A stretch of 39,066 nucleotides of DNA from Candidatus Woesearchaeota archaeon. GTDB lineage: Archaea; Nanobdellota; Nanobdellia; SCGC-AAA011-G17; GW2011-AR17. Below, one piece after another: positions 7,703 through 20,030 of the stretch (the first letter of the stretch is position 1; the number at the start of each line of letters is the position of its first letter). The position numbers were made by a program, and so were the translations under genes. The notes beneath the pieces are model-generated. The model did no database searches, had not been told where the DNA came from, and worked only from the letters and a program-made list of their open reading frames with translations. The DNA lies in contig JAFCFS010000007.1 in the NCBI GenBank assembly GCA_017608525.1, forward strand, positions 1 to 39,066, in the 5' to 3' direction.

Positions 7703-8311
7703 ATGAAAAAAGAAAAAATTAAAGTGGTATTGTGCTGTTTTGAGAAAATACCAAGCGATGTTATAAAAGAGGCAAAGAGCATTATAGAAAAAAAATTTAA
7801 TGCTGAAGTAAAGGTTGTCAAGGGACTTTTTCTTCCACCTACAAGGGTCAGAAAAGTTGAAGGGGTGCAGCAATTATTGGCAGATTCTTTTCTTGCACCA
7901 GTAGCTGCTCAAGCAGGAGAAGGTTATGGAATAGGGATAACAGTACAAGACATATACACACCTGATACAAATTTTGTTTTCGGATTGGCTTCACCTTTGT
8001 TGAGAAGTGCAATTGTTTCAACCTATAGATTGAAAGCAAAAGGAAGCGTACTGTTTTTAAGAAGAATTGCAAAGGAAATTGTCCACGAACTAGGACATGC
8101 TATTTACGACTTACCACATTGCAAAAATCCAAAATGTGTTATGCATTTCTCGAATAGCGTGGAAGATACAGATAAAAAATTAAATTCCTTCTGTTCCGAA
8201 TGTTTAGAAAAAATTAAAAGGGCAAAAAAAGAAAAAGAAGAATTAGAAAAGGTAAAAAACTTTTTCGAGGAGGTGAAAAGATGGGAAAAAAGGAAATACA
8301 AGACAAAATAA
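7703..8311 (+). CDS. amzA: Archaemetzincin-type zinc protease
   Basis: This 202-aa protein starts MKKEKIKVVL when the TATA box is used to pick ATG 7703. Its core is the archaemetzincin zinc motif: HELGH (H128, E129, H132), third His H139 followed by C140, then C145-V-M147 and a C-terminal FCSEC (C164, C167), giving the second zinc site of four cysteines. The N-terminal part has the family LPPTRVRK stretch and LFGLASPL-like strands. Unlike the standard HExxHxxGxxHC, the loop here is one residue longer and lacks the glycine (AIYDLP between H132 and H139). The family is a stand-alone cytosolic peptidase of unknown physiological substrate. A strongly SD-led small gene overlaps its end. Confidence 0.88.
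   Translation: MKKEKIKVVLCCFEKIPSDVIKEAKSIIEKKFNAEVKVVKGLFLPPTRVRKVEGVQQLLADSFLAPVAAQAGEGYGIGITVQDIYTPDTNFVFGLASPLLRSAIVSTYRLKAKGSVLFLRRIAKEIVHELGHAIYDLPHCKNPKCVMHFSNSVEDTDKKLNSFCSECLEKIKRAKKEKEELEKVKNFFEEVKRWEKRKYKTK
8267..8276 (+). promoter_or_regulatory. Strong Shine-Dalgarno site
   Basis: GAGGAGGTGA sits 4 nt before the ATG at 8281, a near-perfect match to the archaeal 16S rRNA tail. It lies inside the archaemetzincin coding sequence and supports the short gene that follows. Confidence 0.75.
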
Positions 8312-16927: not shown

Positions 16928-17832
16928 TGACCAAACAAAAAAGAAAGCTTAACATAAACTTGAAACCCCTCATCAAGAGACTAGAATCAATAACAAAAAG
17001 GAAAGTAAAAACAAGGTTGATGGGAAATTATGCTAGTGTTTTTAGGGGAACTGGTGGTTTTGAATTTGAAGGTTATAGGGAGTATACTTTAAATGATGAT
17101 GCATCAATGATAGATTGGAAGGCATCGGCAAGAGCGAATAAGCTTCTGGTTAAAGTTCTAAAACAGGAAAGGGCATTGGAAGTTTTTTTCTTAGTTGACG
17201 TCAGCGAAAGTATGATCTTCGGAAGCACGACAAAACTAAAAAATGAATATTCTGCAGAATTAATTGGGACTTTAGCATTTGCCATTTCAGCTGCAGGAGA
17301 TAAATTTGGGTTTGCGACTTTTAGCAATAAAGTATCAAATATCCTCCCGCCGAGCAGGGGGATAAATCATTTTTATAGATTATGCAAAATACTAACAAAC
17401 CCAGATGTTTATGGGGGGAACTGCAATTTTGTTGAAGCTTTAGATTTTGCACTCTCGTATGTTAAAAGAAGAAGCACACTTGTGTTTTTTGTTTCAGATT
17501 TTGTTGGTTTAAAGGGAGAATGGGAAAAGAAACTGAAGCTCCTCTGTTCAAAATGTGATGTTGTAATGATTATGGTTAGGGATCCCAGAGATGAAACACT
17601 TCCTGAAGATACCAATCTTGTATTAGTTGAGGATCCATATTCAAAAAGAAGATTGATAATAGATCCAAAACTTATTAAACACCATTATGAATCTTATGTT
17701 AAAAGAGAGGAAAATTCGTTAAGGGAAGCATTTATAAGGGCTGGAGCAGATTTTTTAAAACTCTCGACAGCAGAAAATTTTATTACACCTCTAGTAGGAT
17801 TTTTCATTAGGAGGAGAAGGAAATGGAGGTAA
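16927..17832 (+). CDS. DUF58 protein (vWA-related)
   Basis: This 301-aa protein has the DUF58 core: GYREYTLNDDASMIDWKASAR (about residues 51-70) followed by VFFLVDVSESM, a MIDAS-like DxSxS with SES in place of SGS. Further vWA-like strands include STLVFFVSDFVGL. It is soluble, with no membrane segment. DUF58 proteins always occur with MoxR; the pair is thought to chaperone a vWA or envelope process. It starts at the A of the moxR stop (TAATG) and overlaps the BatA gene by 10 nt. A GGAGGAGAAGG site in its tail serves that next gene. Confidence 0.93.
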   Translation: MTKQKRKLNINLKPLIKRLESITKRKVKTRLMGNYASVFRGTGGFEFEGYREYTLNDDASMIDWKASARANKLLVKVLKQERALEVFFLVDVSESMIFGSTTKLKNEYSAELIGTLAFAISAAGDKFGFATFSNKVSNILPPSRGINHFYRLCKILTNPDVYGGNCNFVEALDFALSYVKRRSTLVFFVSDFVGLKGEWEKKLKLLCSKCDVVMIMVRDPRDETLPEDTNLVLVEDPYSKRRLIIDPKLIKHHYESYVKREENSLREAFIRAGADFLKLSTAENFITPLVGFFIRRRRKWR

Positions 17833-18749
17833 GCTTTCAAAATCCAGAATATTTGTGGTTGTTGGTAGCGATTCCAATTTTAGTTATAGTTCATTTTTAT
17901 GCCTTAAAATACAACAGGGGAAAAGCTCTCAAATTTGCAAATTTCGAAGCAATAGCAAGGGTAACTGGTGGGGAAATACTTTCAAAAAATATAACAGTTT
18001 TAATAATGAGGGTTTTTGCAATTCTTTTTTTAGTTTTAGCTATCTCAGGGACAATAGTTTATTATAAAGGGGAAAGTACAACACATGACATTGTTCTTGC
18101 GATTGACGCTTCGGGAAGTATGAGCGCAACAGATTATGAACCAAGCAGATTGGAAGCGGCGAAAAAAGCAGCACTTACTTTTGTTGAAATGATAAAAGGT
18201 GATGTTGGAATTGGTGTTGTTTCCTTCTCAGGTGCTTCAAGAGTTGAACAAAAAATCACAACTGACAAGATTCTTGTTTCAGAAGCCATAAAAAATATAG
18301 AGTTACAAGAACTAAGTGGAACAGATATAGGGCAGGCAATAATTACTTCCTCAAATCTATTTTTAAATGAGGAAAGGCCAAAAACAATAATTTTACTAAC
18401 TGATGGGCAGGATAATGTTGGGGTTACACCTGCTGAAGCTGTCAAATATATAAAACCAAAAATTGTTGTTCATACAATAGGAATCGGAACAACGGAAGGA
18501 GGAACATTAGGGGATGTAAATGCATTATTAAAACTTGATGAAGAAACATTAAAATTCATAGCTAACGAAACTGGAGGGAAATACTACAGGGCAAAAAATG
18601 TCGAAGAGTTAAAAAAAGCATATAAAGAAATAGCAGAAATAAAAGAAAGAAGATTAAAAAAGAATATCAGCCTTTTTCTCTCTCTGATTGCTTTTGCACT
18701 TTTGTTTATTGAATGGGGCCTTCTAAGTACAAAATACAAGATTATGTAA
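17823..18749 (+). CDS. batA: BatA-like von Willebrand A membrane protein
   Basis: This 308-aa protein has N-terminal membrane helices at about 10-28 and 57-80, a vWA domain facing out with an intact MIDAS (DASGSMS, D95-S99; T in GTDIGQA; D in LLTDGQDN), and a C-terminal helix at about 287-305. This is the Bat (aerotolerance) architecture. vWA MIDAS domains bind metal and protein ligands. With MoxR and DUF58 it forms a standard three-gene module for envelope protein handling. It is the last gene of the plus-strand surface cluster. No BatB/TPR gene follows. Confidence 0.92.
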   Translation: MEVSFQNPEYLWLLVAIPILVIVHFYALKYNRGKALKFANFEAIARVTGGEILSKNITVLIMRVFAILFLVLAISGTIVYYKGESTTHDIVLAIDASGSMSATDYEPSRLEAAKKAALTFVEMIKGDVGIGVVSFSGASRVEQKITTDKILVSEAIKNIELQELSGTDIGQAIITSSNLFLNEERPKTIILLTDGQDNVGVTPAEAVKYIKPKIVVHTIGIGTTEGGTLGDVNALLKLDEETLKFIANETGGKYYRAKNVEELKKAYKEIAEIKERRLKKNISLFLSLIAFALLFIEWGLLSTKYKIM

Positions 18750-18772
18750 CTACTAAAAAATTGCTACATAAA

Positions 18773-18789
18773 CGAAAAATTTAAATATA
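18773..18789 (+). promoter_or_regulatory. Strong BRE/TATA promoter in an intergenic region
   Basis: CGAAAAATTTAAATATA has a purine-rich BRE followed by TTTAAATATA, an excellent archaeal promoter. A start site near 18811 is expected. No protein gene lies downstream on this strand, only the hairpin pair and T-run. Confidence 0.65.
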
Positions 18790-18810
18790 AGTTATTCATA
18801 GCTCCTTATG

Positions 18811-18908
18811 TTCACCTCCTTTTCCAGCAAGAAACCCCGTTTCTTGCCAGGGTTTTCCACCTCTTTTTCCCCAGCAAGAAACGTTCGAGGGTTTCTTGCT
18901 CTTTTTTT
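18811..18908 (+). ncRNA. Putative small RNA with two tandem hairpins and an anti-Shine-Dalgarno-like 5' end
   Basis: The transcript predicted from the promoter is about 95-100 nt. It would begin TTCACCTCCTTTT, one base different from the 3' end of archaeal 16S rRNA (ATCACCTCCT). Hairpin 1 is GCAAGAAAC (18827-18835) paired with GTTTCTTGC (18839-18847), with a CCC loop. A second, variant CACCTCTTTTTCCCC follows. Hairpin 2 is AGCAAGAAAC (18873-18882) with GTTTCTTGCT (18891-18900), with an 8-nt loop. Seven Ts end it. The module (pyrimidine tract plus hairpin) is thus duplicated with a 45-nt period. It lies between convergent genes. A plain double terminator for the batA operon is the main alternative. 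Confidence 0.5.
18873..18908 (+). terminator. Hairpin plus T7 transcription terminator
   Basis: A perfect 10-bp stem, then C and seven Ts ending right at the stop codon of the minus-strand gene. It would end plus-strand transcription (the batA operon, the putative small RNA, or both). Confidence 0.65.
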
Positions 18909-19988
18909 CTACCTTTCCTCGAGAACTAATCTTGTCCAATAAGAATCTGGAAACAATTTCACAAGTTGTCTTTTAAATTCCTCTGCTTTTTTTGTATCAC
19001 CGTAATGTTTTTCAGCTTCATAGGAGTAATATAGAATTTCATCCATTTCGTATTTCACATTAAGCTTAAGAAACTCATTTCTAACCTCTTCAACTTTTTG
19101 TGGTTCTTTTAATTGAAAGTACAAATAGGCTAAATCTGCAAGAATCTCAGCTTTAGACTGCTTGCCCTCTGCAACATCAAGCAATTTAGAGTAATATATT
19201 GAGCCTGCTTTAAAATCTAGAATATCACTATAAAATCTGGCAAGGAATTCGAGATTATTTTCAGGTATGTGAAAGCCTTTCTCCCCTTCAAGTTTCCCAC
19301 CATTATCGTAAAATGTTGGATCAATATGTGAAACTACAATTTTATTTTCATAGAGTATAATTATTGCATTCCAATCGTGTGGTTGTGGGATATGTCCTAT
19401 GCCTGAATTTGTAATATAAACATTTTTTAGGTTTTTATTTAGGTCTTTAAAAACATCAAACACAGCTATAACGGCACTGGCGTATTTATCGCAATCCCCT
19501 TTACCCAATTCAAAATATACATCAATTGGCAAAAATGCACCATGCTCTTTGATAAATTTTTTATCATGGTCAACATCATAATAATTTATTCTCGAAGCAA
19601 CTACCTCTACACTCAACAATATCGCATCTTTAATTGAAAGTTTAGAAATAGATTCTTTTGTGTAACCTAATTTTCTTGCCTCCTCAAAAACTAGCCCTTC
19701 CAATTTTTCTTTGTCTTTTATTTTCGGATGTTCTAAAATAAATCCTAAATCCCATGGCACAACCAGTTCTTTTTCTTTTTCAACAGAAGAAAAATCAATT
19801 TTTGAAAAATCTTGATAAAAAATTCTTTCCCCATAAATATCATAGGTTCTTGTTTTTCTGGGCTTAACTTTCTTTTCAAATTTTTTTACAACATCAAGAT
19901 TTTTACAAGACTGAAAGCTAAATGGAATAGAGTAACCAATAGCAAAAGATGCGCCAAGCAACACCAAATTTCTCCATATCTTTTTCAT
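18909..19988 (-). CDS. Secreted or anchored transglutaminase-like protein with TPR-like tail
   Basis: This 359-aa protein has an N-terminal hydrophobic segment (about residues 8-24) followed by FSFQSCKN, possibly a degenerate lipobox (C28). Its middle has a transglutaminase-like Cys-His-Asp triad: GKGDCDKYASA (C166), PQPHDWNAII (H204), HIDPTFYDN (D223). The last ~100 residues are helical with TPR-like repeats (AEILADLAYLYFQLKEPQKVEE). ATG 19988 is preferred over GTG 19997 because a TATA box (about 20012-20022, minus strand) lies about 29 nt upstream. Such proteins act in the envelope as peptidases or crosslinkers. An Lgt gene is nearby at 24057. Its stop sits at the edge of the terminator. 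Confidence 0.75.
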   Translation of the reverse strand: MKKIWRNLVLLGASFAIGYSIPFSFQSCKNLDVVKKFEKKVKPRKTRTYDIYGERIFYQDFSKIDFSSVEKEKELVVPWDLGFILEHPKIKDKEKLEGLVFEEARKLGYTKESISKLSIKDAILLSVEVVASRINYYDVDHDKKFIKEHGAFLPIDVYFELGKGDCDKYASAVIAVFDVFKDLNKNLKNVYITNSGIGHIPQPHDWNAIIILYENKIVVSHIDPTFYDNGGKLEGEKGFHIPENNLEFLARFYSDILDFKAGSIYYSKLLDVAEGKQSKAEILADLAYLYFQLKEPQKVEEVRNEFLKLNVKYEMDEILYYSYEAEKHYGDTKKAEEFKRQLVKLFPDSYWTRLVLEER

Positions 19989-20030
19989 TTTCTTCACTAC
20001 AAAATAGTAACAAATATAAAAATGTTTCGG

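Follow-up and report, generated by a model that had tools for sequence, protein, structure and literature searches.

What is encoded by a short stretch of archaeal DNA that carries its own promoter, two hairpins and a T run between two protein genes: the double terminator of the operon upstream, or a small RNA that carries a copy of the ribosome's mRNA-reading tail? We addressed this question for positions 18773–18908 of a 39,066-nt stretch of DNA (the window) from a Candidatus Woesearchaeota archaeon, whose genome is a 1.03 Mb, 30% G+C archaeal MAG of 88 contigs that was read in stretches covering about 1.007 of 1.028 Mb. A preliminary description made from the sequence alone had reported a near-ideal BRE/TATA, a predicted start, two hairpins with one stem sequence, a pyrimidine tract repeated with a 45-nt period and a T7 run, and had proposed a small RNA with an anti-Shine-Dalgarno 5′ end that could switch the cell between leaderless and SD-led translation, with a double terminator of the batA operon as the alternative. 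When we re-examined each of these features the observation was confirmed, whereas the interpretation was only partly supported, in that a small-RNA gene with its own promoter and an unpaired, 16S-tail-like tract is right but a general switch between leaderless and SD-led translation is not supported as stated. The coordinates of the features are collected in Table 1.

Table 1. Features of the locus and its surroundings (window positions).
Position	Strand	Feature	Basis
17823–18749	+	batA-like gene upstream, context and not part of the RNA	PF07584 BatA and VWA
18740–18771	+	Upstream promoter element (dyad ACTACT..TTGCTACATAA) overlapping the end of batA; regulatory role inferred	Upstream alignments, where the same kind of element precedes the RNA promoters of the order; scores 12.4 with a rough matrix that is not discriminating by itself
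18773–18788	+	BRE/TATA promoter CGAAAAATTTAAATAT	14.84 bits with the genome-trained motif; conserved about 22 nt before the tract in relatives
18810–18812	+	Predicted transcription start	21–23 nt after the promoter motif, the leaderless-start peak of this genome; prediction without RNA data
18811–18856	+	RNA module 1: TTCACCTCCTTTTCC tract, hairpin, CAGGGTTTT	Covariance model, 40.1 bits, E 8e-7 in the whole genome
18812–18825	+	Unpaired 5′ tract of module 1, equal to the 16S tail over TCACCTCCTTT	Predicted fold and comparison with 16S; the only member of 76 with C at that position
18827–18847	+	Hairpin 1, 9 bp GCAAGAAAC/GTTTCTTGC, loop CCC	Hairpin scan; the equivalent stem covaries in relatives
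18858–18905	+	RNA module 2: CACCTCTTTTTCCCC tract (family consensus), hairpin, diverged 3′ end	Covariance model, 29.6 bits, E 2.9e-4 in the whole genome
18873–18900	+	Hairpin 2, 10 bp, loop GTTCGAGG	Hairpin scan
18902–18908	+	T7 run, likely transcript end	Sequence; termination inferred
18909–19997	−	Convergent gene of unknown family, context	ORF of 362 aa, no Pfam match

To judge the promoter by the genome's own standard, we learned a 16-nt motif by EM from 432 upstream regions (caAAAAATTTATAAAt), without seeding it with this site. Start codons peak 21–24 nt after the motif, so that many genes appear leaderless, and the site ranks 36th in about 1.0 Mb on both strands; of the 36 sites that reach its score, 31 lie in intergenic DNA, against 4 in reversed and 0–1 in shuffled intergenic DNA. 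Strong sites without a called protein gene downstream, when read by eye, turned out mostly to be tRNA or rRNA genes, short or missed protein genes, and a few unexplained structured RNAs. Among these (L and C numbers denote the stretches of DNA as read and the contigs, G numbers the genomes), an orphan promoter of 15.4 bits at L077 from 19818 (own contig C19) is followed by a very stable structured RNA (fold −59 kcal/mol over 160 nt) with no Rfam match, a candidate new RNA, and two further strong orphan promoters, at L066 from 3591 and L055 from 6746, are followed by hairpin-rich RNAs without Rfam match, the L055 one divergent from the SRP RNA gene. A leaderless mini-gene could also be read from the ATG at 18808, 19 nt after the promoter motif, in a frame that stays open for 44 codons through both hairpins, but 19 nt is off the 21–24 nt peak, relatives have no ATG there (ATCACC), and the stem varies with compensation in base pairs, making this reading very unlikely.

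Downstream of the predicted start, the tracts CACCTCCTTTTCC (18813–18825) and CACCTCTTTTTCC (18858–18870) are 45 nt apart, and each introduces one of two near-identical tract-plus-hairpin modules, followed by CTTTTTTT. The RNA folds with z = −7.1, although, as a correction to the preliminary description, the minimum-energy fold is one long nested hairpin of the two modules rather than two separate ones; both CACCUC tracts stay unpaired either way. Two hairpins, the second followed by a T run, 80–150 nt behind batA would suit a double intrinsic terminator of that operon. However, perfect hairpins followed by T runs occur at only 4 of 1038 gene ends in this genome, against 2 in the control direction, and perfect hairpins of 8 bp or more with at least 3 G+C lie in only 18 of 476 intergenic regions, with two in one region in only four, one of these next to the rRNA genes. 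Moreover, the unit has its own top-ranked promoter and occurs across the class without being tied to batA: family members lie at unrelated places, and where the downstream side could be read no such hairpin lay directly behind batA, apart from one copy about 650 nt behind batA in G002. Termination is thus refuted as the main function, while a secondary terminator role remains possible.

Synteny of batA and of the convergent gene gave no comparable intergenic region, no genome of the same genus turned up among the relatives searched (the nearest named relative found by batA is a Woesearchaeota MAG), and an exact search with the stem in the own genome found only this site. Other intergenic CACCTCC sites did not form a class of anti-SD RNAs: L155:9005 has no strong promoter, and L129 2390–2580 (own contig C71) is a gene leader with a 12-bp hairpin showing CUCCU in its loop, inside a 126-bp duplicate with an N run that looks like an assembly artefact. 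Instead, BLASTN of 18800–18910 against 99 related genomes showed a shared core at query 59–83 (CACCTCTTTTTCCCCAGCAAGAAAC), with per-genome E down to 6e-10; antisense or unrelated matches (L187, L193, L195, L200, L204, L210, L213) were set aside as false positives. The loci share a layout of upstream dyad, BRE/TATA, about 22 nt, ATCACCTCTTTTTCCCC, a hairpin of changing sequence and CAGGGTTT, so that relatives keep promoter, tract and hairpin, a condition on which the preliminary description had staked its reading. A dyad like GTAACTACTnnnnAnTTGTTACAA directly upstream of the BRE in the RNA promoters (window 18740–18771; L024 2430–2474; own contig C20 5154; L089 421) also precedes a few protein genes, suggesting a possible regulon of one transcription factor, although the matrix for this dyad was too poorly aligned to define one.

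Both modules of the window match one RNA family built here, which consists of UCACCUCUUUUUCC, a covarying hairpin and then GGGUUU. In an alignment of 26 members, 97.4% of cells were paired against 82.8% shuffled, with 39 double-change cells against 11.8 and covariation of 0.470 against 0.186 shuffled and at most 0.115 when the partner was slid. A covariance model from this alignment finds the family in 94 of 103 genomes of the order (44 of 47 of the best-quality ones) and in 287 of 371 sampled from the phylum, where every listed genome is labelled same class or closer; these are lower bounds because strict filters were used. It gave 0 matches at E<=1e-3 in 20 bacterial genomes, with nothing below E 0.02. 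Divergent members keep tract and tail but change the whole stem, and on 39 mostly divergent members covariation is 0.698 against 0.202 shuffled, with 155 double-change cells against 48, though that alignment was fitted to the structure. Over 76 members CACCUC is invariant (76/76), UCACCUCUUUUU is exact in 66 and GGGUU is nearly so, while the stem changes freely with compensation. The first base varies (A, C, G, T), and in some divergent members the promoter lies 40–50 nt upstream, so the tract is not always at the very 5′ end. Rfam 15 has no match in the window at the gathering score and gave only weak, chance-level hits far below cut-off for a family member, the C/D boxes (RUGAUGA, CUGA) or ACA box of a guide RNA are absent from the consensus, and literature searches, including the sequence itself but not subscription journals, found no description. 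RNA-seq of Nanoarchaeum equitans reports C/D, H/ACA and CRISPR RNAs (PMC3491384).

The copy in the window is a diverged, duplicated member of this family, in which the unit is one hairpin. Module 1 keeps the 3′ end but has the 16S-like tract CACCTCC, the exception to the family consensus CACCTCTTTTT, whereas module 2 keeps the consensus tract. The duplication is a local feature of this genome and a few others, with tandem copies also at L250, L252 and L255.

What, then, might the tract do? The genome's own 16S ends GGATCACCTCCTTTAAT, as read from the gene rather than from a mapped mature 3′ end, and the family tract equals the 16S rRNA tail over AUCACCUC, an anti-SD copy that goes on as UUUUU. 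(Contig C55, L113 1–20, begins with a 16S 3′ end followed by other sequence, either a second rRNA fragment or a contaminant contig.) We searched 102 genomes for its complement AAAAAGAGGTGA followed by ATG within 2–10 nt, which gave perfect complements of 12–15 nt ahead of ATG at loci away from the RNA gene. Of 71 sites read, 12 were classed as the RNA gene's own opposite strand (at least one of them, L328, wrongly, as it is a target); of the 59 others, 22 open tiny (8–50 aa) Lys/Arg-rich ORFs such as MAAKKKKAAKKRR, MAAKKKAKKRR and MATIKQLANKIRSLKKQ..RRRRR, from many genera, and 37 precede other genes. Behind the 16S-optimal site GGAGGTGAT (searched as GGAGGTGATN..ATG) only 1 of 30 does so (p=3e-4). 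GGG, which extends pairing into the RNA's CCC and was not part of the search pattern, stands directly before the site in 7 of 24 tiny-basic sites and 0 of 36 others (p=9e-4; this count uses a slightly wider cut-off and includes L328). These p-values are optimistic, since related genomes are pooled and the sites are not independent. The target class was seen in the data before the control was run, and the enrichment comes without a control for the A-tract (AAAAAGGAGGTGA..ATG), which could simply be part of strong ribosome-binding sites. Furthermore, G032 (97% complete) has two such target ORFs but no detected copy of the RNA. Several of these recurrent ultra-short ORFs (L307–L406, e.g. L313, L315, L317, L323, L324, L377) have a TATA-like sequence upstream and some a leader hairpin ending GGGAAAAAGAGGTGA; they are possibly nucleoid or ribosome-associated peptides.

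The window genome itself has no AAAAAGAGGTGA..ATG site and no tiny basic ORF with the full complement. Its Lys-rich ORF at C19:18583 has the RBS AGAAGGAGGTT, which would suit module 1's CACCTCC tract, but this is one case; if module 1 (CACCTCCTTTT) is the active seed, target RBSs in close relatives would be expected to have shifted to AAAAGGAGGTG. An uncalled 35-aa ORF at L110 14168 (−), MKRSSRRWKKKGQMRWKWQRKRMKKEKRRRKALAG, appears from its sequence alone to resemble ribosomal protein eL41.

The preliminary description had instead proposed that the RNA could titrate many SD sites and so favor leaderless mRNAs, citing strong sites such as GAGGAGGTGA at 8267, which does exist, 4 nt before an ATG. 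In line with this idea, the tract equals the 16S tail, SD sites are a minority in this genome (any of four 4-mers in 21% of genes, GGAGG in 6.5%), and a strong leaderless promoter spacing exists. However, the conserved tract fits AAAAAGAGGUGA better than the 16S-optimal SD: predicted duplexes at the tiny-basic sites reach about −16 to −17 kcal/mol with the sRNA against about −12 to −13 with the 16S tail, whereas on a 16S-optimal SD the order is reversed (−15.8 against −19.5), the 16S tail winning by about 4 kcal/mol. Complementarity thus points to a narrower set, the SD sites of tiny Lys/Arg-rich proteins that match the sRNA better than they match 16S, and we consider a general SD competitor unlikely. 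Alternatively, the RNA could be a decoy of the 16S 3′ end for a protein that recognizes AUCACCUC, candidates being a ribosome-maturation factor (Dim2/Nob1 type) or an Sm-like protein bound to the U tract. The total invariance of CACCUC would also suit a protein site, as would the U-rich tract and 3′ UUU, but a decoy does not explain the complementarity to tiny basic ORFs or its GGG extension, and 16S goes on with CU where the RNA has UUUUU, leaving this alternative equally doubtful.

We therefore favor, with moderate confidence, a small trans-acting RNA of a class-wide archaeal family. In this view, the cell makes from its own promoter an RNA of about 53 nt (about 95 nt here because the unit is duplicated) with an unpaired 5′ tract UCACCUCUUUUU followed by a stable hairpin and GGGUUU; the tract would pair with the extended ribosome-binding site (GGG)AAAAAGAGGUGA of selected mRNAs, above all those of tiny Lys/Arg-rich proteins, cover the SD and so probably repress their translation, while the hairpin and the U-rich ends would stabilize the RNA. 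The gene, its promoter, structure and conservation, and the complementarity and target enrichment with the limits given above, come from the computation, whereas transcription in the cell, the pairing, and repression as its direction, which follows from the SD overlap alone, are inferred. A precedent is Methanosarcina mazei sRNA162, an archaeal trans-acting small RNA whose single-stranded stretch pairs with a ribosome-binding site and masks it (PMC3510493), although that RNA is described in one methanogen, is not reported to mimic the 16S tail, and differs in its target class from the one proposed here. The 16S 3′ end itself shares AUCACCUC and pairs with GAGGUGA, but in the present family this sequence is the 5′ end of a separate small RNA. 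Bacterial sRNAs with C/U-rich SD-binding motifs, of the RsaE type, likewise aim an unpaired pyrimidine motif next to a stable hairpin at SD sequences, but are unrelated in sequence and taxa. The arrangement does not fit a type I toxin-antitoxin RNA encoded opposite its toxin gene, as the RNA and the tiny basic ORFs lie on different contigs or far apart (e.g. G055 C5 and C26; G047 C1:655916 and C1:117821).

More tentatively, and less likely than not on present evidence, we speculate that a single small RNA, nearly universal in a class of ultra-small archaea, uses its copy of the ribosome's own anti-Shine-Dalgarno tail to control in trans the translation of minimal (8–50 aa) Lys/Arg-rich nucleic-acid-binding peptides, which would make it a core post-transcriptional circuit for the whole lineage. 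Little is known of RNA regulation in these mostly uncultured archaea, and a class-wide RNA as regular as this one, absent from Rfam 15 and from the literature that could be searched, gives a first handle in the form of a defined (predicted) transcript, a defined seed and a short list of predicted targets that can be tested. It would also show an RNA that copies the ribosome's own mRNA-reading tail being kept across many archaeal families.
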